Below, piece after piece: positions 21,086 through 63,657 of a DNA stretch of 64,000 nucleotides (its first letter is position 1; every line of letters begins with the position of its first letter). Source of the stretch: Croceivirga thetidis (GTDB lineage: Bacteria > Bacteroidota > Bacteroidia > Flavobacteriales > Flavobacteriaceae); assembly GCF_012272815.1 (NCBI RefSeq), contig NZ_JAAWWL010000002.1, positions 898,280-962,279 on the forward strand, in the 5' to 3' direction. The notes beneath the pieces are model-generated. The model was not told the origin of the DNA and ran no database searches. It saw nothing but the letters and a program-made list of their open reading frames with translations. The position numbers and the translations under genes are program-made.

Positions 21086-21113
21086 AAACCTCTTCTAAAT
21101 GGAGAGGTTTTTT
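21086..21113 (+). terminator. Terminator after the exported protein gene
   Basis: AAACCTCT pairs with AGAGGTTT over a 9-nt loop and continues in a T-run to 21113. The T-run reaches the stop of the convergent pgl gene. Confidence 0.8.
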
Positions 21114-21822
21114 ACAATTTGGAAGCTGCTGCCTCATCCATGAAAAAAACCAATTGTCCTGAATCTGGATTGACCAAAGAGGCTGGATACTTTTCAAAAC
21201 CTGCTTTTTTATGGTGAATTTCATCTACTTTTTGTGCTTTTGATGACCCGGTGACCAAGAACACCACTTCTTTTGAGCAATTAATAACCTTACCGTTTAT
21301 AGATACCCGTTTCTGTCCAGAATCAGGATGAGTGGCCACAACACAATGGTCGTTTGAATTCCAAAGAGCTATTTCATGTGGAAATATTGAGGCCGTATGA
21401 CCATCATCACCCATACCCAAAATCACCAAATCAAATTGGGGAACACCCTCTACCCTATCCAGATTTATTTCCAGCAAATTGGCATAACGCATGGCTTCGC
21501 CCATCGGGTCAGCTTCACCAAGAACTCTATGGATGTTTTTTGACGGAACATCAATTTTCGAAAACAGATGTTCAACGGTCATTTTATAATTACTCTGGTC
21601 ATCTGAAGGAGGAACGCAACGTTCATCACCCCAATAAAAATGAATTCTTGACCAGTCAATTTTATCGCCATAGTCAGCAGCAAGAACATCAAATACTATT
21701 TTGGGAGTACTGCCACCAGATAGGGCCACTTGAAAAATTTCTTTTCCTTTTACCAATTCTTTAAAGTATGCCGAAAATTTATGGGCAACTTCATTTTTAT
21801 CCTTGAATACTTTTACTTCCAT
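21112..21822 (-). CDS. pgl: 6-phosphogluconolactonase
   Basis: A 236-residue DevB-type lactonase of the glucosamine-6-P isomerase fold. It hydrolyses 6-phosphogluconolactone, the second step of the oxidative pentose phosphate pathway. Motifs are VALSGGSTPKIVFDVL near residue 35, HFYWGDERCVPPSDDQSNYKM (split here as HFYWGDERCVP and SNYKM) and DLVILGMGDDGHTASIFPH. It lies 37 bp downstream of zwf on the same strand, so it is co-transcribed. Confidence 0.96.
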   Translation of the reverse strand: MEVKVFKDKNEVAHKFSAYFKELVKGKEIFQVALSGGSTPKIVFDVLAADYGDKIDWSRIHFYWGDERCVPPSDDQSNYKMTVEHLFSKIDVPSKNIHRVLGEADPMGEAMRYANLLEINLDRVEGVPQFDLVILGMGDDGHTASIFPHEIALWNSNDHCVVATHPDSGQKRVSINGKVINCSKEVVFLVTGSSKAQKVDEIHHKKAGFEKYPASLVNPDSGQLVFFMDEAAASKL

Positions 21823-21859
21823 TTCAAAAACGTTTTTCTCTTTTTCCTATTCAATCATC

Positions 21860-23392
21860 CTAACAAATCACGCAGAACCCGGGGTCATCGGTAAGATTGT
21901 CTCCAGGATTTCTCCAGAACCCGACACCTTCAATTAAATCATCAGCGTTTTCAGGACCCCAAACACCAGCTGAGTAACCGTACATGCGAACATCTTTACC
22001 CGTATTCCAATATTGAAGTATGGGGTCTACAAATTCCCAGGCAGCCTCTACTTCGTCTGCTCGTGCATAAAGGGTGGCATCGCCCTGCATGGCATCCAAT
22101 AATAACCGCTCGTAGGCCTCCATTACATGGGTCTCCACCAAATCTGAATAATAAAAATCCAAATTGGCGCGCTCTACCTTAAATCCTTGCCCAGGAACTT
22201 TAACACCGAACTTGACCAGAATTCCCTCATTGGGTTGTATCCGTATTACCAATTTATTGGCCTTTTCCCCCATTTGCTCATCTTGAAAAATCTGGTGATG
22301 TGGTTTTTTAAAATGAATCACCACCTCAGTAACCTTTGTTGGCATTCGTTTCGCAGTCCTTACATAGAATGGCACATCACGCCATCGCCAATTATCCACA
22401 AAGAATTTGATAGCGGCATAGGTTTCAGTTTTGGAATCCGGGTCCACACCATCTTCTTCTCGGTACCCGTTCACTTTTTTACCATCAATTGTTGATGACA
22501 TATACTGCGCACGGATGGTATGGTCAAACAAGGTTTTGTCATCTTTCATGATTCGTAGAGACTTCAGCGCTTTGACCTTTTCATTACGAATCTCTTCGGG
22601 GGCATCACCAATCGGAGGCTCCATAACCACCAATGAAACAATTTGTAATAGGTGATTTTGGAACATATCTCGTAGCGCTCCAGATTTGTCATAATACCCA
22701 CCTCTTTTTTCCACACCTACACTTTCAGCATTTGTGATTTCAACATGGTGTACGTAATTCCGATTCCACAAAGGCTCAAAGATGCTGTTTGCGAATCGCG
22801 TTACCAGAAGGTTCTGCACGGTTTCTTTACCGAGGTAGTGATCAATTCTAAAAATCTGGGGTTCCTCAAAATAATTCTGAAGGCCAACATTCAAATCTTT
22901 GGCCGTTTCAAGACTCGTACCAAAGGGCTTTTCAATTAGTAAACGTCTCCAACCTTCAAATTGTAGGTTCAAATTTTGTTCCGCCAATCTTGCTGCTATG
23001 GTCTCGTACAATTGAGGTGGCGTCGACAGGTAATAGATTTGATTGCCATCGGTTCGATACTTCTGGTCCAAATCCGCAATGCGTTTGGCCAACTTTCCGT
23101 AAAAGCTATCGTAGGAATCTCCTAAGTCTTGGTAAAAGAAGAGCTTCGCAAAATTATCGACATGTTCTTTTGATTTTTTTGCCAGTCTTTCCTTTAGATA
23201 ATTGCTATTGTATACAATTCGATCACGAAATTGATTATCGGTAAGATTGCTTCTGCTCGCTCCGAGAACAACAAAATTATCGGGCAAATGTCCTTCAACA
23301 TATAGATTGTAAAGGGCAGGCACCAATTTTCTTGCCGTTAAGTCACCTGAGGCTCCAAATATGACAAGCAATTGATTTTCCGTTTTTTTCAT
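21860..23392 (-). CDS. zwf: Glucose-6-phosphate 1-dehydrogenase
   Basis: 510 residues, a normal length. The NADP site is VIFGASGDLTARKLVPALY near the N-terminus. The substrate and catalytic motif RIDHYLGKE lies near residue 180, preceded by EKPFGTS. It oxidises glucose-6-phosphate to 6-phosphogluconolactone. It leads the zwf-pgl transcript and is divergent from gnd, so all three oxidative pentose phosphate enzymes share one control region. Confidence 0.97.
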   Translation of the reverse strand: MKKTENQLLVIFGASGDLTARKLVPALYNLYVEGHLPDNFVVLGASRSNLTDNQFRDRIVYNSNYLKERLAKKSKEHVDNFAKLFFYQDLGDSYDSFYGKLAKRIADLDQKYRTDGNQIYYLSTPPQLYETIAARLAEQNLNLQFEGWRRLLIEKPFGTSLETAKDLNVGLQNYFEEPQIFRIDHYLGKETVQNLLVTRFANSIFEPLWNRNYVHHVEITNAESVGVEKRGGYYDKSGALRDMFQNHLLQIVSLVVMEPPIGDAPEEIRNEKVKALKSLRIMKDDKTLFDHTIRAQYMSSTIDGKKVNGYREEDGVDPDSKTETYAAIKFFVDNWRWRDVPFYVRTAKRMPTKVTEVVIHFKKPHHQIFQDEQMGEKANKLVIRIQPNEGILVKFGVKVPGQGFKVERANLDFYYSDLVETHVMEAYERLLLDAMQGDATLYARADEVEAAWEFVDPILQYWNTGKDVRMYGYSAGVWGPENADDLIEGVGFWRNPGDNLTDDPGFCVIC

Positions 23393-23450
23393 GTGATTCT
23401 CGGTATTAAATTTTTGAGCAAAACGAATATAACGTTTAAATTATCTGTAT

Positions 23451-23489
23451 GCAGGTGAAATTCGATTACTTAGTACTATCTTAACCTGC
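23451..23489. promoter_or_regulatory. Inverted repeat in the zwf/gnd control region
   Basis: GCAGGTGAA (23451-23459) and TTAACCTGC (23481-23489) are inverted with one mismatch around a 21-nt centre. They sit within the 111 bp between the divergent genes, where an operator would be expected. No repressor is encoded nearby. Confidence 0.3.
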
Positions 23490-23503
23490 CTAAATTGATT
23501 TTA

Positions 23504-24919
23504 ATGGCTACAGAAAAGTACGATTTCGGTATGGTAGGGCTCGGTGTGATGGGTCGAAACTTTATCTTGAATGTTGTAGACAATGGCTTCTCTGCTTATG
23601 GTAATGATCTAGACCCTGAAAAAGTGAAGGCTTTGATTGATGAAGGCGGTGATCTCGATAAGGTTAATGCCAGTTCCGACGCCAAAACTTTTGTAGATGC
23701 TTTAAGTACTCCTAGAAAAATCATGCTTTTAGTACCAGCCGGGAAAATCGTGGATGCTGTTATTGAAAGTCTCATACCCTTGCTTGATGAAGGTGATATT
23801 ATCATTGATGGTGGAAATTCTTTTTATACCGATACCGATAGACGTGAAGCCTATTTAAAACAGAAAGGGATAAACTTTTTTGGCTCTGGGGTATCCGGTG
23901 GTGCGAAAGGCGCTCGAAAGGGCCCTAGCATAATGCCCGGTGGTTCTCGAAAGGCCTACCAGCATGTTAAACCAATCTTTGAGGCTGTAGCGGCCAAATA
24001 TAAAGGAGAGCCCTGTGTTACCTATTTGGGACCTAAATCAGCGGGAAATTATGTAAAAATGGTGCATAATGGCATTGAGTACAGCATGATGCAGCTGACC
24101 TCTGAAATCTATGATTTACTAAAAAAGGCAGGAAAGTTGACCAATGAAGAACTTCATCAAACCTACTCCAAATGGAATGATGGTCGTTTGCAATCCTTTT
24201 TGGTCGAAATTACGGCTGATATTTTTTCACAAAAGGATGAACTCACCGATGGTGATTTGGTCGATATGATATTGGATAAGGCCAAACAAAAAGGAACCGG
24301 AAAATGGACCTCGCAGAATGCAATGGATTTGGGTATACCCGTGCCAACCATCGATATTGCAGTAAGCATGCGCCAAATCTCCGCCTTAAAATCTGAGCGC
24401 ATAAAAGCTGATGAACTTTACGATAGGCCCACACCTTCACCAATAGACAAAGAAGAACTGATTGAAAACTGTGAACAAGCATTGTTCTTTTCTTTCATTA
24501 TGTCCTATGCCCAAGGTATGCACCAATTATCGGATGCCAGTGTGGAATATGGTTACGAATTGGACCTTGGGGAAATCGCTAAAATTTGGCGTGCGGGTTG
24601 TATTATACGCGCGGCCTTGTTGGCTGACATAACAGAGGCCTATCAAAATGAACCTGAATTGGAAAATCTGTTGCTTTCAAATTCTTTTGTTGGCAAGGTG
24701 CAAAGCACGGTTGGCGCTGCCCGAAAAGTGGTGGCTTATGGCGCTGCCAATGGAATTCCACTTCCAGGGCTATTTAATGCGCTCACCTATTTTGATGCGT
24801 ACACTTCAGAAAGGCTGCCTTTAAATGTAATTCAGGCGCAACGCGATTACTTTGGCTCCCACACCTACGAGCGTATTGACCGTGAGGGTATCTTCCATAC
24901 GGAGTGGGAAGAGGATTAA
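23504..24919 (+). CDS. gnd: 6-phosphogluconate dehydrogenase, decarboxylating
   Basis: 471 residues from ATG 23504; the frame opens at TTG 23495. The Rossmann motif GMVGLGVMGRNF is at the N-terminus. Also present are IIDGGNSFYTDTDRR, the substrate signature GSGVSGGAKGARKGPSIMPGG and catalytic KMVHNGIEYSMMQ. It converts 6-phosphogluconate to ribulose-5-phosphate, CO2 and NADPH. Length matches the long tetradecameric-helix type of E. coli. No terminator is evident after it. Confidence 0.97.
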   Translation: MATEKYDFGMVGLGVMGRNFILNVVDNGFSAYGNDLDPEKVKALIDEGGDLDKVNASSDAKTFVDALSTPRKIMLLVPAGKIVDAVIESLIPLLDEGDIIIDGGNSFYTDTDRREAYLKQKGINFFGSGVSGGAKGARKGPSIMPGGSRKAYQHVKPIFEAVAAKYKGEPCVTYLGPKSAGNYVKMVHNGIEYSMMQLTSEIYDLLKKAGKLTNEELHQTYSKWNDGRLQSFLVEITADIFSQKDELTDGDLVDMILDKAKQKGTGKWTSQNAMDLGIPVPTIDIAVSMRQISALKSERIKADELYDRPTPSPIDKEELIENCEQALFFSFIMSYAQGMHQLSDASVEYGYELDLGEIAKIWRAGCIIRAALLADITEAYQNEPELENLLLSNSFVGKVQSTVGAARKVVAYGAANGIPLPGLFNALTYFDAYTSERLPLNVIQAQRDYFGSHTYERIDREGIFHTEWEED

Positions 24920-57951: not shown

Positions 57952-59535
57952 TTAACGTTCTGATTTCAAGGTGGGGTATTCAATGCCCAATTGTTCTAAA
58001 TATGTATCGAATTTGGTTTCATCATAATAGAATTTCTCTAAATCAGCGCGAAACTGATCTTGTTTGTCCTTATTCATGTAAATAGGTGGTAAATCATCTG
58101 CAGAAATCATGGGTTCATAAGTGTCATCTTTGCTTTGAACGTCATTGAAATAAGTCCAAGCATCTTTTAAGAGTTGTGGTTTTAAAAGGAAATCCAAAAT
58201 GGTCATTGCTTCTGCTTTAGCCCCTGCAACAACTCCTTTATGTGCAATAGGTGTTGCCATTGTTATGGCATTACTCCAGTGATGTCCTTGCAATCCCGGA
58301 ATGTTTGACGGATACCGCATTGTTACTGTTGGTATCTTCCACGAAATATCACCAATGTCATCGGAGCCTCCGCTTATTGGCGTTACCATTGGCAAACCAA
58401 GGTCCATTAATTCAGTTGCCAAACCATCAACATTTAAAGAATTCACTTCTTTTTGAACGGCCTTGGCCAAAGTTTGGTCCGCTTCTGACCATTCTGGCAA
58501 TCCAATTGTCTTTATGTTCTCATACATGGTCTCTGCAATCACTTTATTAAAATGACGCGGCCAAGCAGCGCCCAAAACCCTTGATGACATTTTTGTTCCT
58601 GTCATTAGGGCTGCTCCTTTTGCTATATCATTTGCTTCGGCATACATTTTCATGATGCCCCTGTATTTGATATCTCGAAAATAAAACCAAATGGCCGCCT
58701 TTGAGGGAACCACATTAGGTTGGTCACCAGCATCTGTAAAAATAGAATGTGAGCGCTTTAACGGGTGCAAATGTTCTCGCTTATAATTCCAGCCAATATT
58801 CATTAACTCCACTGCATCAAGAGCACTTCTACCGCGCCAGGGCGCTCCGGCGGAATGCGCTGCCTCACCTTCAAACATATACTCAACTGAAATCAACCCA
58901 GTACCTGTTGTCGGACCGTAGGAAACGCCAAGGTTACTGCTAACATGGGTGAAAATGCACATATCGATGTTATCAAATAGTCCGTCACGCACATACCAGG
59001 CTTTAGAACCTAATAGTTCTTCCGCAATACCCGGCCATACTAAAAGCGTACCACCAATATTTTCACGCTCCATAATTTTCTTGACGGCTAAAACTGCAGC
59101 AATATTCAAAGGAATACCCGAATTATGTCCTTCGCCATGCCCCGGGGCACCTTCAACCATAGGTTTGTGATAAGCAACACCTGGGTATTGGGATGCTTTC
59201 GGAATACAATCAACATCGCTACCAATTGCAATTGTTGGACCTTCACCATTACTCCACTCCGCAAACCATGCAGTAGGAATTCCTGAAATGGAATTTTCAA
59301 TTTTAAAACCATTCGATTCTAAGATTCCAGTGAGATATTTCGAACTCTCCTGTTCTTGGAAACCAAGCTCTGCAAAGCTAAATACTTTGTCAACCATTAC
59401 TTGAGCTAGTTTTTTGTCAGCCTCTACCAACGCTGCTACTTCGGTTTTTAATTTTTTGATTTTACCCTTGGAGAATTTTTGTGCCTGAATAGTTAGGGCA
59501 CAAGAAAGAAGAGTCAATACGAATAGTGTTCTCAT
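57952..59535 (-). CDS. Exported M20-family amidohydrolase (AbgB-like)
   Basis: 527 residues from ATG 59535 (signal peptide RTLFVLTLLSCALTIQAQ); the open frame starts 23 codons earlier at a TTG with no signal sequence. The M20/M28-type core has AIGSDVDCIP, GHGEGHNSGIPLNIAAVLA and FTHVSSNLGVSYGPTTGTGL. A dimerisation domain follows and a C-terminal EWSEADQ..GGSDDIGDISW part resembles p-aminobenzoyl-glutamate hydrolase subunit B. It hydrolyses an amide or peptide bond, probably in the periplasm. It follows the D-amino-acid operon but is separated from it by 156 bp. Confidence 0.88.
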   Translation of the reverse strand: MRTLFVLTLLSCALTIQAQKFSKGKIKKLKTEVAALVEADKKLAQVMVDKVFSFAELGFQEQESSKYLTGILESNGFKIENSISGIPTAWFAEWSNGEGPTIAIGSDVDCIPKASQYPGVAYHKPMVEGAPGHGEGHNSGIPLNIAAVLAVKKIMERENIGGTLLVWPGIAEELLGSKAWYVRDGLFDNIDMCIFTHVSSNLGVSYGPTTGTGLISVEYMFEGEAAHSAGAPWRGRSALDAVELMNIGWNYKREHLHPLKRSHSIFTDAGDQPNVVPSKAAIWFYFRDIKYRGIMKMYAEANDIAKGAALMTGTKMSSRVLGAAWPRHFNKVIAETMYENIKTIGLPEWSEADQTLAKAVQKEVNSLNVDGLATELMDLGLPMVTPISGGSDDIGDISWKIPTVTMRYPSNIPGLQGHHWSNAITMATPIAHKGVVAGAKAEAMTILDFLLKPQLLKDAWTYFNDVQSKDDTYEPMISADDLPPIYMNKDKQDQFRADLEKFYYDETKFDTYLEQLGIEYPTLKSER

Positions 59536-59691
59536 TTGATTGGTTTTGGATTTGCAGAATATTCTAAAATAAGAAACTTCTGAACCAATTGATTTACAGA
59601 ACATGACTTTTTAATTCTTTGCGAAAAGTGCTAATGGTATTTGGAATAATTGGAATTTAAAGCCCTACAATTCTTGATATCATAAAAGGAG

Positions 59692-60765
59692 TTAAACCCA
59701 AGTCTGTTCTAAAAAGGACAAAAAATTACCATTTAGGATTTGCTGGATTTCCAATGTTGAATATCCTCGAGCACCCAATAGTTCTGGTAGCTTTTGCAAA
59801 TCGGCAATGCTATCCAAGTCTTTGGGCGACTGTTCTTTACCAAAGGCGCCATCCAAATCGGTACCGATTCCAACATGGTTTGCATTACCCGCTAATTGAC
59901 AAATATGGTCAATATGGTCTACTACATTTTGAAGTCCCACATTCATGCTTTGAGGTGTGGATACGCCTCGTTGCCAATTTGGAGTCAACATCCATGCATC
60001 CATAGCAACACCAATGACACCCTTTCGGTTGATGATTTCTTTGATTTGTTCATCTGAAAATTGCCGATTGTGGTTCACCAAGACCCTACAATTGTTGTGA
60101 CTGGCCCAAAGCGGTCCTGAATACAAATCCATGGCTTCCCAAAAGCAGGTATCACTTAAATGGGTAACATCCAATATCAAACCCAACTCGCTTATTTTCT
60201 TAAGGAGCTCACGCCCTTTAGAGCCTAATGGTCCATCTGAATCCGTACCAAAAGCATAGGTCCCAGGGCCATAATGGGCAGGCCCAATTGCCCTTAACCC
60301 GTTTTGATAGGCCTTTTCGAGATAGTCCATATTAATAATGGAATCCGCTCCTTCAAGGCTTAAAATGTAACCGATTGGGGTTAAACCAGGGTCTTTATCC
60401 CAATTTGCCAAATGGGCCTGAAGTTGTTTTAGATTGGTTATTTGGACCATTTCCCCACACTGCTCCATAGTCCGATACCACTCAAATTGGGCTTGTGTTT
60501 GCGCCCATGCCTGTTCCGGAGAATACCAACCGGGTAACGTACTGCCTTTTTTTACATAGCGCGCAATTTGTGTGGCCACACAGATACCCACATTCCCTTC
60601 ACGCAAAGCAGGTAAAGAAACCGTTCCTTGAGCACGGTCTGGCTTATCGCTCATACCAGATTCCCTTTCTCGTATTTCTTCTACTGAAAGCCGTAAATCG
60701 CGATTCCATTCCATCGCATTCATGGAAAGGTCTAGATGAGCGTCAAAGATTAATGGTGCGTCCAT
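59692..60765 (-). CDS. Membrane-dipeptidase family M19 dipeptidase
   Basis: 357 residues, no signal peptide, so probably cytosolic. A binuclear zinc TIM barrel: DAHLDLSMNAM (first HxD), bridging Glu in LSLEGADSI, LDVTHLSDTCFW, WASHNNCRVLVNHNRQ and GTDLDGAFGKE. M19 enzymes cut dipeptides and accept a D-residue at the C-terminal position. It overlaps the D-TA gene by one base (TGATG) in the operon. Confidence 0.92.
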   Translation of the reverse strand: MDAPLIFDAHLDLSMNAMEWNRDLRLSVEEIRERESGMSDKPDRAQGTVSLPALREGNVGICVATQIARYVKKGSTLPGWYSPEQAWAQTQAQFEWYRTMEQCGEMVQITNLKQLQAHLANWDKDPGLTPIGYILSLEGADSIINMDYLEKAYQNGLRAIGPAHYGPGTYAFGTDSDGPLGSKGRELLKKISELGLILDVTHLSDTCFWEAMDLYSGPLWASHNNCRVLVNHNRQFSDEQIKEIINRKGVIGVAMDAWMLTPNWQRGVSTPQSMNVGLQNVVDHIDHICQLAGNANHVGIGTDLDGAFGKEQSPKDLDSIADLQKLPELLGARGYSTLEIQQILNGNFLSFLEQTWV

Positions 60766-61877
60766 CAGAAATTAATTTTTCGGTCTCTTGCTGCGACCTT
60801 CCAACTACTTGAAATTCTTCCATCCTCAACCACATGAACGTTGGGATATTTAGCCACAGTCGGACATATATGCATTGGTATCGCATAGAATAGGTCTCCT
60901 ATTTCATAATTCTCTGGATTACTGACTGAAAGCACAAAATGCTCCTCACTCTGCCCTAATTGCTCAAAATCATCTGAGTTTAAAAATTTGACCCGAGGAA
61001 ATGGCATTTCAGAAGCCAAAGACTTGTGCCCCAAATCCAAACAGAACTGTTCCGATTGAGGCTTACTTATCAATCGGGTTACCAGCACCGCAGCATGTTG
61101 AAAGTTCATTTCGGGGAATTTGGAACCATACCCTTCGTCCCATAGTAGCGTCGTACCCGGAGATAACACAATATCATCTCTGTGGGCATGGGCTGGAAAA
61201 GTTGGTGAGCCACCAACTATGATTGATTCGACTTTATATCCATCGGCTTCAAGGGTATCGCGCATTTCCAATACGGGCTGCAGCGCTTCTGCACAGGCTT
61301 TTTTGCGTTCTTCAAAATCTTGAATCCGTAGGTGACCATCATACACATGAAATCCTCTTGCCACTAAATATTCATTCCCAGAAATCGATTTAAACAATTC
61401 AAGTACCGCAACACTTGGTGCGATGCCCGTGCGGTTCATACCATTGTTAATATCGATAAAGGCCCCTACACTTTGTTTCCGCTCTAAAGCCATTGCTTCA
61501 ATGCGGTTGGCGATGCCAAGATTATCAACTAAACAGGCAAACATAGCATTCGGAAAGTTTGCCGCAACCTCAAAAAATCGTTTGATTTCTGGCCCAACGG
61601 GCTGCATCGCCAAAAGAATATCTTTGGCACCAGTGGAGGCCAGCAATTCCATTTCGGCAATGGTGGCACATTTAAATTTGTTGATGCCATGCTTTTGTTG
61701 CATTTGAATGACCTCGGCCATCTTATACGTCTTAATATGCGGCCTAAGTTTCTCTGCTGAACCTGCAATACGCAACATTTCTCTAATGTTGTGTTCAATA
61801 CGGTCAGGATATAATAGTAACGAGGGAGTAGTTAGCGCCTCAATATTTTGAACCGTAAACCAATTGGAATCACTCAT
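60765..61877 (-). CDS. PLP-dependent D-threonine aldolase / D-serine dehydratase family
   Basis: 370 residues of the alanine-racemase-like type III fold. The PLP lysine is in LRPHIKTYKMAEV. Barrel strands follow, then the C-terminal domain with DLGHKSLASE and PMHICPTVAKYP. The H-x-C pair in PMHIC matches the zinc site of eukaryotic-type D-serine dehydratase and D-threonine aldolase. It should split D-threonine-like beta-hydroxy-D-amino acids or deaminate D-serine to pyruvate. One-base overlaps with both neighbours tie it to RidA and M19. Confidence 0.9.
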   Translation of the reverse strand: MSDSNWFTVQNIEALTTPSLLLYPDRIEHNIREMLRIAGSAEKLRPHIKTYKMAEVIQMQQKHGINKFKCATIAEMELLASTGAKDILLAMQPVGPEIKRFFEVAANFPNAMFACLVDNLGIANRIEAMALERKQSVGAFIDINNGMNRTGIAPSVAVLELFKSISGNEYLVARGFHVYDGHLRIQDFEERKKACAEALQPVLEMRDTLEADGYKVESIIVGGSPTFPAHAHRDDIVLSPGTTLLWDEGYGSKFPEMNFQHAAVLVTRLISKPQSEQFCLDLGHKSLASEMPFPRVKFLNSDDFEQLGQSEEHFVLSVSNPENYEIGDLFYAIPMHICPTVAKYPNVHVVEDGRISSSWKVAARDRKINF

Positions 61878-62341
61878 TATTCGTAAAGTTCAAAATGTGC
61901 TTCAATTTCAACTAGAATATTACTGGGAAGCATCATACCAACGGCACTTCGTACACCTATCCCGTTTTCCTTTCCGAAAACGTCGGCCATTAATTCACTA
62001 AAACCATTGATGACATACGGATGTTCTTTAAAATCAGGGGTGCAGTTGACCATTCCCAATACCTTCACCACACGCTTGATACGGTCTAAATCACCAAAGT
62101 GTTCTTGAATTGTGGAGAGCATCGTTAAACCAACCTGTCGTGCCCCTTCTTTTCCTTTATCCTTATCCGCATCGTCCCCAACACGTCCGGTCATTAGGCT
62201 TCCATCTACATTAACAGGGCCTTGCCCTGAAACATACAAGAATTTATCCACCACTAAGACAGGTCTGTATACGCCTGCAGGCGGTGGAGCTGGAGGTAAC
62301 TCTAGCCCAAGGGCGGTAATTCGTTCTTTGATTGAATTCAT
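61877..62341 (-). CDS. ridA: RidA family enamine/imine deaminase
   Basis: 154 residues from ATG 62341; the open frame runs back into gntP but the longer N-terminus lacks a domain. The RidA/YjgF fold has FLYVSGQGPVNVDGSLMTG, VKVLGMVNCTPDFKEHP, the catalytic Arg in GVRSAVGMMLPSN and the C-terminal Glu in VEIEAHF. RidA removes 2-aminoacrylate, the reactive intermediate of serine dehydratases, which fits its place before the D-TA/D-serine dehydratase gene. It starts 2 nt after gntP. Confidence 0.93.
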   Translation of the reverse strand: MNSIKERITALGLELPPAPPPAGVYRPVLVVDKFLYVSGQGPVNVDGSLMTGRVGDDADKDKGKEGARQVGLTMLSTIQEHFGDLDRIKRVVKVLGMVNCTPDFKEHPYVINGFSELMADVFGKENGIGVRSAVGMMLPSNILVEIEAHFELYE

Positions 62342-62343
62342 GA

Positions 62344-63657
62344 TTAGATAAATTGATTTAATACTAGCGTTCCTAAAAGTCCCATGATACCTACTAAGGT
62401 TTCCATCACCGTCCAAGTTCTAAGGGTTTGTTTCACTGAAAGGTTGAAATACTCCTTAAACAACCAAAACCCGGAATCATTCACATGGGAAAGCATTAAA
62501 CTACCTGAACCAATGGCCAACACCAACAATTCAGCACTAACCCCAGCTGTTGAGGCCAATGGCAAAACGATACCTGCAGCGGTCAAACCGGCGACAGTAG
62601 CGGAACCCACACAAACCCGAATGGCTGTGGCAATCAACCAAGCCAAGATAATTGGGGAAAAATTAGAGTTTTCCAATAAGCCAGCGATATAATCGCTTAC
62701 TCCACTATCGATTAAAATCTGTTTTAGTGCGCCGGCACCACCAATAACCAATAGAATCATGGTGATTCCAACAACGCCTTCAACAACGGTATCCATAACT
62801 TCTTTCATCTTTTTACCTTGGCGAAGACCCAAAGTGTAAATGGCCAAAAGCACGGCCAACAGCATGGCCATCACTGGATTCCCCAGAAAAACTAAAACTG
62901 TTCGCAAGGTTCCTTCTTCAAGAAACTGCTCTGCTGCAATAGCAATAAAAATTAAGATAATGGGAAACAATGCGGTAAAAAGACTAATGCCCGTTTTAGG
63001 CATTTCATGGTCTTCCAATACCTGCGGATTGTAAAATTTAGCCAAGGGCTTGGCCTCTATGTTTTTTAAGGTTCGTGCAAATAATGGTCCACCAACTATA
63101 ATGGCAGGTATGGCCACTATCAAGCCATAAAGTAAGGTCTTCCCAAAATCGGCTTCAAACATAGTTGCGATTGCTGTTGGCGCAGGATGCGGTGGCAAAT
63201 AGCCATGGGTAACCGAAAGTGAAGTCAACATCGGAAGGCCCACGTACAAAAGGGGTAATCTCGTGGTTGCGGCAACCGTAAATACCAAGGGCACCAAGAT
63301 TACAAAACCGACCGAATAAAACATTGGGATTCCCACAATGAATCCGGTCAAAACCACGGCCCATTGCACGTATTTGATTCCAAAGGTGTCCACCAGTTTT
63401 GTGGTTATCCGTTGCGCTGCGCCGCTATCGGCAACGAGTTTGCCCAGCATTGCTCCAAGACCGAGGATGAGCACTAAAAAACCAAGTGTGCTTCCTATTC
63501 CCTTTTGTATGGAAGCAACAATGGCAAGGGGCTCCATGCCTTGTAATAATCCAACAAATAGACAAACGATGATAAAAGATAAAAAAGAGTTGAGCTTTAA
63601 ACCGGCAATCAGGGCGAATAACAACAAGATTCCAGCAATAACAATTAGTAAGGTCAT
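62344..63657 (-). CDS. GntP family permease (gluconate / D-serine type)
   Basis: 437 residues with 12-14 TM helices. Motifs include LKLNSFLSFIIVCLFVGLLQGM (key part LNSFLSFIIV), GLGAMLGKLVADSGAA, GIPMFYSVGFVILVPLV and the signature VTHGYLPPHPAPTAIA. The last is found in all GntP/DsdX/IdnT proton symporters. Downstream genes for a D-serine/D-threonine enzyme and RidA make a DsdX-like role (D-serine or related D-hydroxy acid) more likely than gluconate. It is the first gene of the operon. Confidence 0.92.
   Translation of the reverse strand: MTLLIVIAGILLLFALIAGLKLNSFLSFIIVCLFVGLLQGMEPLAIVASIQKGIGSTLGFLVLILGLGAMLGKLVADSGAAQRITTKLVDTFGIKYVQWAVVLTGFIVGIPMFYSVGFVILVPLVFTVAATTRLPLLYVGLPMLTSLSVTHGYLPPHPAPTAIATMFEADFGKTLLYGLIVAIPAIIVGGPLFARTLKNIEAKPLAKFYNPQVLEDHEMPKTGISLFTALFPIILIFIAIAAEQFLEEGTLRTVLVFLGNPVMAMLLAVLLAIYTLGLRQGKKMKEVMDTVVEGVVGITMILLVIGGAGALKQILIDSGVSDYIAGLLENSNFSPIILAWLIATAIRVCVGSATVAGLTAAGIVLPLASTAGVSAELLVLAIGSGSLMLSHVNDSGFWLFKEYFNLSVKQTLRTWTVMETLVGIMGLLGTLVLNQFI

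Follow-up and report, generated by a model that had tools for sequence, protein, structure and literature searches.

The oxidised end of chitin oligosaccharides, N-acetyl-D-glucosaminate (GlcNAc1A), is degraded in Pseudoalteromonas by the ong pathway, in which OngB has been proven to deacetylate GlcNAc1A and OngC to turn glucosaminate into 2-keto-3-deoxygluconate (KDG) and ammonia, and KdgK phosphorylates KDG (PMC9537276). According to the same study, the RidA-like OngD is required for growth on GlcNAc1A, OngC also deaminates D-serine and D-threonine, and the complete ong set occurs almost only in Gammaproteobacteria (PMC9537276). OngB has been described as a D-aminoacylase-like enzyme specific for GlcNAc1A, with a reported structure (PMC12017989); of two further papers, one mentions the pathway and lists a lytic polysaccharide monooxygenase (LPMO) for Aquimarina muelleri (PMC10535946), and the other describes a search for ong genes in Aeromonas (PMC11653859). 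Here, we analyzed a stretch of 64,000 nucleotides from the Flavobacteriaceae bacterium Croceivirga thetidis (contig NZ_JAAWWL010000002.1, positions 898,280 to 962,279; hereafter the window), near the end of which four genes encode a GntP-family permease, a RidA-family protein, a fold-type III pyridoxal 5'-phosphate (PLP) enzyme and a protein of peptidase family M19. This unit probably serves the uptake and catabolism of a 2-amino-2-deoxy-D-aldonate, GlcNAc1A being the likeliest candidate.

Among the papers listed by searches of the openly accessible literature, we found no report of a GlcNAc1A pathway in Bacteroidota or of an M19 deacetylase, subscription journals lying mostly outside the search. 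A preliminary description of the window, made from the sequence alone, had seen in the unit an operon for the uptake and breakdown of D-hydroxy amino acids such as D-serine. The compound class still stands, with a PLP enzyme apparently of the dehydratase type, a RidA for the enamine and a hydrolase that could release the amine. D-serine as the main substrate is unlikely, because relatives carry a KDG kinase and a 2-keto-3-deoxy-6-phosphogluconate (KDPG) aldolase, which make that reading too narrow.

Organization and conservation of the four-gene unit

The unit occupies positions 63657-59692 on the minus strand and comprises the following features:

62344-63657, minus strand: GntP-family permease of the gluconate:H+ symporter type (PF02447, TIGR00791), proposed (N-acetyl-)amino-aldonate importer
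61877-62341, minus strand: RidA/YjgF-family protein (PF14588, PF01042; ATG start at 62341), proposed to act in enamine/imine hydrolysis
60765-61877, minus strand: fold-type III PLP enzyme (PF01168 and PF14031), proposed D-glucosaminate (2-amino-2-deoxy-D-gluconate) dehydratase/deaminase yielding KDG and NH3
60864-60872, minus strand: metal-ligand motif of the PLP enzyme, H-I-C at residues 336-338 (H336-I-C338)
59692-60765, minus strand: peptidase family M19 protein (PF01244), proposed cytosolic N-acetyl-D-glucosaminate deacetylase freeing the amino-aldonate

The genes are as tightly packed as first described: the GntP stop codon TAA is followed after 2 nt by the RidA ATG, the RidA and PLP-enzyme genes share one base (TAATG), and so do the PLP-enzyme and M19 genes (TGATG). 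The arrangement is conserved beyond what chance would give. Of 82 loci of PLP-enzyme homologues (L027-L108; the best 80 from a scan of named genomes plus two plasmid records), 50 encode RidA, M19 and GntP together, each no more than 3 kb from the PLP enzyme and in its orientation; taken singly, the partners are RidA (72), M19 (66) and GntP (58), loci cut by contig ends being scored as misses. These loci come mostly from Bacteroidota (Flavobacteriaceae, Chitinophagaceae, Dyadobacter, Mucilaginibacter and others, with one of the plasmid records from Parabacteroides distasonis), and also from Verrucomicrobia, Opitutales, Acidobacteriota and Rhodoferax metagenome-assembled genomes. The complete unit was likewise found in nine of 12 loci of a further set that includes the window (L015-L026), and in 12 of 20 stretches from phylum-sample genomes with the PLP enzyme (L109-L128), ten of which were chosen from a single genus, g47. 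Those 20 stretches were taken from the 40 genomes that have the enzyme among 392 evenly drawn from the Bacteroidota, about a tenth, while a search of 60 relatives matched it in 13 genomes, the window's own included. In comparison with three close kin (L015-L017), identity is lowest for the PLP enzyme (59-69%), GntP reaching 88-94%.

Two variants of the gene order were seen. A small lipoprotein-like gene (about 151 amino acids) stands between PLP enzyme and M19 in several Flavobacteriaceae, among them L044, L054 and L060, as well as at L023:8585-9040, and in the gut bacterium P. distasonis a gene annotated as DUF4833 is inserted between GntP and RidA (L107:6955-7476).

Comparison with described systems

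Like the ong cluster of Pseudoalteromonas prydzensis, the unit combines a transporter, a putative metal-dependent amide hydrolase, a putative fold-type III PLP deaminase and a RidA protein, the last a family member as OngD is, and the g47 relatives additionally have KdgK, a GH20 enzyme and outer-membrane transport. The parts themselves differ: M19 (PF01244) takes the place of the D-aminoacylase-like OngB, GntP that of the SSS-family OngIT, the regulator of g47 is DeoR-like instead of MurR/RpiR, and the window's cluster lacks a KDG kinase, which is in-cluster in ten relatives. Most genomes with the operon also lack an LPMO of family AA10, the window's genome having GH20 without AA10. The PLP enzyme, finally, was compared with a gammaproteobacterial stand-in for OngC, locus L148, which we picked by gene context, it being the only ong-like locus among 25 gammaproteobacterial stretches (matches in genomes G696 and G816 were left out); it holds matches to an sss and an amidohydrolase model, both under cut-off, a 3gwq-like enzyme and a weak KdgK-like gene 7 kb away. 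In the tree, the window's enzyme belongs to a clade of 113 rows that includes neither L148 nor the 3gwq-like relatives of L148. The unit may work like ong without being a member of it.

The dsdXA D-serine system likewise pairs a GntP-family permease with a D-amino acid deaminase. DsdA, however, is a fold-type II enzyme, unrelated to the fold-type III PLP enzyme, and the window's GntP falls well short of the cut-off of the DsdX model (NF007395, 311.3 bits against 618). It exceeds the family cut-offs (PF02447, 530.5 bits against 22.5; TIGR00791 gluconate:H+ symporter, 555.6 against 292.75) and reaches 559.9 bits on the gluconate model NF011560, whose equivalog cut-off is 744. By these scores, it is nearer to gluconate transporters than to DsdX, while remaining under both equivalog cut-offs; this closeness speaks against D-serine as the particular substrate. 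The RidA protein passes its family cut-offs (PF14588, 54.6 bits against 35; PF01042, 33.9 against 27.3) and stays under that of the archetypal TIGR00004 (23.7 bits against 106.25); its R131, within GVRSAVG, is invariant in 95 of 95 homologues.

The PLP enzyme carries a dehydratase-type metal pair

The PLP enzyme matches PF01168 (72.9 bits) and PF14031 (61.9 bits). Its H-x-C metal pair, noted as intact at the outset, is H336-I-C338, and in an alignment of 135 homologues, the His/Cys type is found without exception in the 113 rows of the clade that contains the window's enzyme (H-I-C in 87, H-V-C in 26); 11 of the 22 gammaproteobacterial rows of the same alignment have H-C-D. In D-threonine aldolase, His347 and Asp349 bind the metal and His193 is the proposed base; the zinc D-serine dehydratase (3anu), by contrast, has His and Cys as ligands and lacks the His193 equivalent (PMC4401734). 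At the His193 column, the window has Ile, and His is found in three of the 113 clade rows as against all 11 H-C-D rows.

Fold-type III enzymes of both activities resemble the protein. An AlphaFold2 model (predicted local distance difference test score 92.1, from a 12-row alignment) matched, in the Foldseek ranking, the 3-hydroxy-D-aspartate aldolase BhcC, D-threonine aldolase and then D-serine dehydratase, D-threo-3-hydroxyaspartate dehydratase (3wqc) also being among the matches. The two dehydratases share the fold and the His/Cys metal pair (for 3wqc taken from the titles of the H351A and C353A mutant structures) but only 19-22% identity with the window's enzyme in structural alignment, and they belong to a separate clade or context. 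BhcC and D-threonine aldolase are the best matches by both sequence and fold, and an aldolase was for that reason considered; however, they have H-x-D where the window has H-x-C, the window has Ile at the His193 column, and the BhcC model NF045642 gives 119.9 bits, under its cut-off of 690. A dehydratase-type pair and the absence of His at that column make aldol cleavage less likely. The metal pair points to an enzyme of the dehydratase type, eliminating water.

Relatives link the unit to a probable KDG kinase and a KDPG aldolase

Gene neighbors were counted around the PLP enzyme in 114 loci, of which L017 duplicates L027 and L026 is the window itself. An Eda-type KDPG aldolase (PF01081) lies within 2.5 kb in 11 of them (L047, L048, L049, L058, L096 and L109-L114), and in all but L048, a PfkB-type kinase joins it (10 of 11; Pfam was run on representatives). 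Locus L058 has the order KdgK-Eda-GntP-RidA-PLP enzyme-M19 with gaps of a few bases; the best solved match of its kinase is 2afb, a 2-keto-3-deoxygluconate kinase (E 1.1e-97). Eda passes the cut-offs of models for 2-keto-4-hydroxyglutarate (KHG)/KDPG aldolase in L058 (NF005499, 356.6 against 275) and L047 (TIGR01182, 180.2 against 156.05). The kinases of the relatives exceed no NCBIfam cut-off, their best models being an aldolase/kinase fusion and KDG/2-keto-3-deoxygalactonate (KDGal) kinase; on these matches, the PfkB-type kinase looks like a KDG kinase.

In the phylum sample, six of the 40 enzyme-bearing genomes have eda next to the PLP enzyme, where the number of eda genes and the genome size would lead one to expect about 0.05. 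All six belong to genus g47, and the fair count is therefore one of lineages: in a FastTree tree, the Eda-linked loci occupy three separate places, namely Aquimarina and kin (48-51% PLP-enzyme identity to the window), L096 (42%) and g47 (38-42%). With Eda of L047 as query, 14 of 52 genomes of the Aquimarina genus matched, the only full identity being to the source genome itself (G450).

The window's genome has a KdgK-Eda pair elsewhere (L158:89-11298, contig C1), identified by search together with two short-chain dehydrogenase/reductase genes; SusC/D-like, FadR-like and MFS-like neighbors were recognized by eye. The cluster looks like one for uronate (alginate-type) utilization, and its KdgK-Eda pair might provide the enzymes that finish the route of the window's operon.

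Sugar-related neighbors and genomes

In six of the ten g47 loci, the gene order is SusC-SusD-GntP-RidA-KdgK-Eda-PLP enzyme-M19, and all ten have a DeoR-like gene and a GH20 beta-hexosaminidase alongside (Pfam run on L109 only). The Aquimarina megaterium locus (L047) carries, on one strand, GH20, an SMP-30/gluconolactonase, an esterase-like gene, an FG-GAP protein, GntP, RidA, the PLP enzyme, M19, KdgK, Eda and GH18, and the genome (G450) has an AA10 LPMO. An SSF transporter gene directly precedes GntP in L070 and L087 alone among the 114 loci (Pfam on L070 only).

The distribution of GH20 and AA10 was examined over 80 genomes, comprising 49 with the PLP enzyme and 31 of the 42 enzyme-negative genomes first listed (G017, G027 and G029 of the 13 enzyme-positive relatives were left out, as were G450-G454). 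All 49 enzyme-bearing genomes have GH20, as do 25 of the 31 without the enzyme, a weak association since the two sets differ in kinship and genome size. The window's genome has two GH20 matches, none of them around the unit (L026).

Within the Aquimarina genus, 33 of 52 genomes have AA10 and four have the PLP enzyme, all four with an LPMO, which is not significant (p 0.15); no AA10 match was found in the four other Eda-linked named genomes (G451-G454). As three of the four Aquimarina-genus genomes with the PLP enzyme also lack the operon, we do not claim a general co-occurrence of LPMO and PLP enzyme.

The M19 protein may belong to a specialized subfamily

The M19 protein (PF01244, 174 bits) has, by eye, no evident signal peptide. 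It shares the family and the metal-ligand motifs of M19 dipeptidases, its closest solved structures by sequence being the M19 dipeptidases 3ly0 and 3fdg, together with 3neh from the renal dipeptidase family. The residues that we take to form the H-x-D, E and H ligand motifs are H10 and D12, invariant in 89 of 89 homologues, and E138 and H202, kept in 87 of 89. Many of the first 100 or so residues (N16, W20, N21, D40, R44 and others) are also invariant across the 89 homologues, and the N-terminal part, up to roughly residue 90 to 145, remains mostly unaligned to the solved chains in the alignments shown, a difference from 3ly0 and 3neh. This pattern suggests a specialized subfamily, although a new substrate does not follow from the invariant N-terminal residues. 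The motif EGAD, which stands where renal dipeptidase has EGGH (its His being H152), was considered as a mark of a non-dipeptidase and dropped, because 3ly0, 3fdg and 3neh likewise lack that His (EGAE, EGIE).

Proposed pathway

We infer every activity of the following route from gene content, conservation, residue types and neighborhoods. GntP would carry the aldonate over the inner membrane, where the cytosolic M19 protein would cut the N-acetyl or N-acyl amide to give D-glucosaminate. M19 enzymes accept X-D-Xaa dipeptides, and GlcNAc1A is an N-acyl-D-amino acid with a free carboxylate, similar in shape to the C-terminal half of such dipeptides. D-glucosaminate is in turn a D-configured beta-hydroxy amino acid, from which the H-x-C PLP enzyme would remove the beta-hydroxyl as water, the metal activating it, while RidA would assist hydrolysis of the enamine/imine to KDG and ammonia. 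KDG kinase and KDPG aldolase, encoded beside the operon in some relatives and elsewhere in the window's genome, would complete the route.

It is the route ending in KDG, indicated by the Eda and KdgK neighbors, that leads to D-glucosaminate, probably imported as GlcNAc1A. To our knowledge, 2-amino-2-deoxy-aldonates (D-glucosaminate, GlcNAc1A) are the only compound class that accommodates at once a dehydratase specific for D-beta-hydroxy amino acids, KDG as product, a permease of the gluconate type and hexosaminidases. The Eda/KdgK linkage, the sugar context, the metal pair, the gluconate-like GntP, the ong precedent and the genome's own KdgK-Eda pair all count in its favor. For amino-aldonates as a class, we hold this to be reasonably probable; for GlcNAc1A itself, we would stop just short of an even chance.

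Several observations weigh against this assignment. The KDG product is read from relatives whose PLP enzymes are 38-51% identical to the window's; within the retrieved stretches, Eda occurs in only five of the 82 loci, and in the window stretch (L026), no KdgK, Eda, glycoside hydrolase or SusC/D stands beside the operon. GH20 is found in three of the 82 loci (L047, L063 and L089) against about one expected, hence no clear link outside g47 and L047. Because AA10 (PF03067) is nearly absent (0 of the 80 genomes tested, the window's included, and one of the 392 phylum-sample genomes, that one without the PLP enzyme), GlcNAc1A would have to be scavenged; of the four Aquimarina-genus genomes with the PLP enzyme, only A. 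megaterium has the operon. On the enzyme side, the best solved relatives of M19 are dipeptidases and we know of no M19 deacetylase, while H182 of the PLP enzyme, three residues before the His193 column, is invariant in 113 of 113 clade rows, so that an aldolase-like base near that place is possible. Homologues of the PLP enzyme also occur in other settings (L024, L025, L122, L124 and L154-L156), L122 and L124 being a different cluster with class III aminotransferase and 3HCDH-like genes. Even for ong, the source paper assigns OngD no definite role, and OngC yielded KDG without it in vitro (PMC9537276).

Alternative explanations

The alternative that survives best, though we consider it unlikely, keeps D-serine-like amino acids, or dipeptides with such a residue at their end, as the substrates: M19 would cleave X-D-Ser, the PLP enzyme would form aminoacrylate and RidA would help to release pyruvate. 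The H-x-C pair is that of zinc D-serine dehydratase, a RidA is present, the M19 protein is nearest to dipeptidases, and in L024 and L025, the PLP-enzyme homologues stand beside hydrolases of PF00144, a family that includes D-stereospecific peptidases. It nevertheless leaves unexplained the Eda of 11 and the KdgK of ten relatives, as well as the gluconate-type GntP, GH20, SusC/D and lactonase. D-serine would yield pyruvate, D-threonine 2-oxobutyrate and 3-hydroxy-D-aspartate oxaloacetate, none of which needs KdgK or Eda. That OngC, too, takes D-serine and D-threonine (PMC9537276) can be counted for this alternative; by the same analogy, D-serine turnover is a possible side activity of the operon.

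Less probable again is the same route acting on another amino-aldonate or N-acyl form, such as D-galactosaminate or an aminoacyl-glucosaminate, with M19 remaining peptidase-like. The relatives' KdgK and Eda also match models of KDG/KDGal kinase and phosphogalactonate aldolase, under cut-offs, and nearly all genomes lack the LPMO that would generate GlcNAc1A; yet the GH20, GH18 and gluconolactonase of L047 fit glucosamine-derived aldonates, and the best solved match of the kinase is a KDG kinase.

The four genes could also form an all-purpose set for detoxifying or scavenging various D-amino acids, into which KdgK and Eda were drawn because GntP carries gluconate. This would accord with the varied settings of the homologues and with the 6-phosphogluconate dehydrogenase and SKI small kinase near the unit in L049 and L048, but it is very improbable given that KdgK and Eda sit inside the g47 unit, between RidA and the PLP enzyme, and that gluconate requires neither PLP enzyme nor RidA nor M19.

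Neighboring genes and other settings of the PLP enzyme

One further gene lies past the unit in the window:

57952-59604, minus strand: M20-type (AbgB-like) amidohydrolase (TIGR01891, 148.7 bits, under the cut-off of 153.75; probable start ATG 59535)

It begins 87 nt past M19 as the longest open reading frame (ORF), or 156 nt past it if ATG 59535 is used, the N-terminus from that ATG resembling a signal peptide. Of all loci examined, the window and that of Croceivirga lutea (L017, the same locus as L027) are the only ones with this gene next to the unit. This amidohydrolase, initially suggested as a possible further hydrolytic step, is not a conserved partner (one of 82 loci); it is a neighbor and no member of the four-gene unit. 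A divergent sulfate-permease gene lies upstream of the unit, and at 21112-24919 of the window, ORFs on divergent strands resemble, by eye, 6-phosphogluconolactonase, glucose-6-phosphate dehydrogenase and 6-phosphogluconate dehydrogenase.

At L049:3417-5248 and L048:13824-15701, close to Eda-linked operons, a small kinase (Pfam SKI), which we read as a gluconokinase, accompanies 6-phosphogluconate dehydrogenase, the two being fused into one ORF in L048.

Elsewhere, PLP-enzyme homologues occur without RidA, M19 and GntP (L024:9314-11531, L025:9465-12138 and L156:7738-10421; 42% identical in L024 and L025), with the PF00144 serine hydrolase adjoining in L024 and L025 and a MarR-like gene nearby, by eye, in L024 and L156; in these loci, the enzyme family perhaps serves in the utilization of D-peptides. 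At L122:3301-10739 and L124:3748-10733, M19 and the PLP enzyme are accompanied by a class III aminotransferase and two 3HCDH-like proteins, with a PF04734-like protein between M19 and the PLP enzyme (Pfam on L122 only; L124 by similar order).

Implications

We tentatively suggest that the unit is a widespread Bacteroidota counterpart of the GlcNAc1A pathway assembled from other enzymes, in which this M19 subfamily would be a cytosolic GlcNAc1A de-N-acetylase, a new lineage of carbohydrate deacetylases, and the H-x-C fold-type III enzyme a D-glucosaminate dehydratase; many bacteria may live on amino-aldonates released by others. If this holds, the catabolism of oxidised amino sugars has a second version, built on other enzymes, in a phylum important for polysaccharide turnover, and an unsuspected amide hydrolase joins carbohydrate deacetylation. 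It would also give a function to many genes now annotated as "membrane dipeptidase" or "D-TA family PLP-dependent enzyme", and bacteria that have no LPMO would seem to cross-feed on the products of LPMOs.

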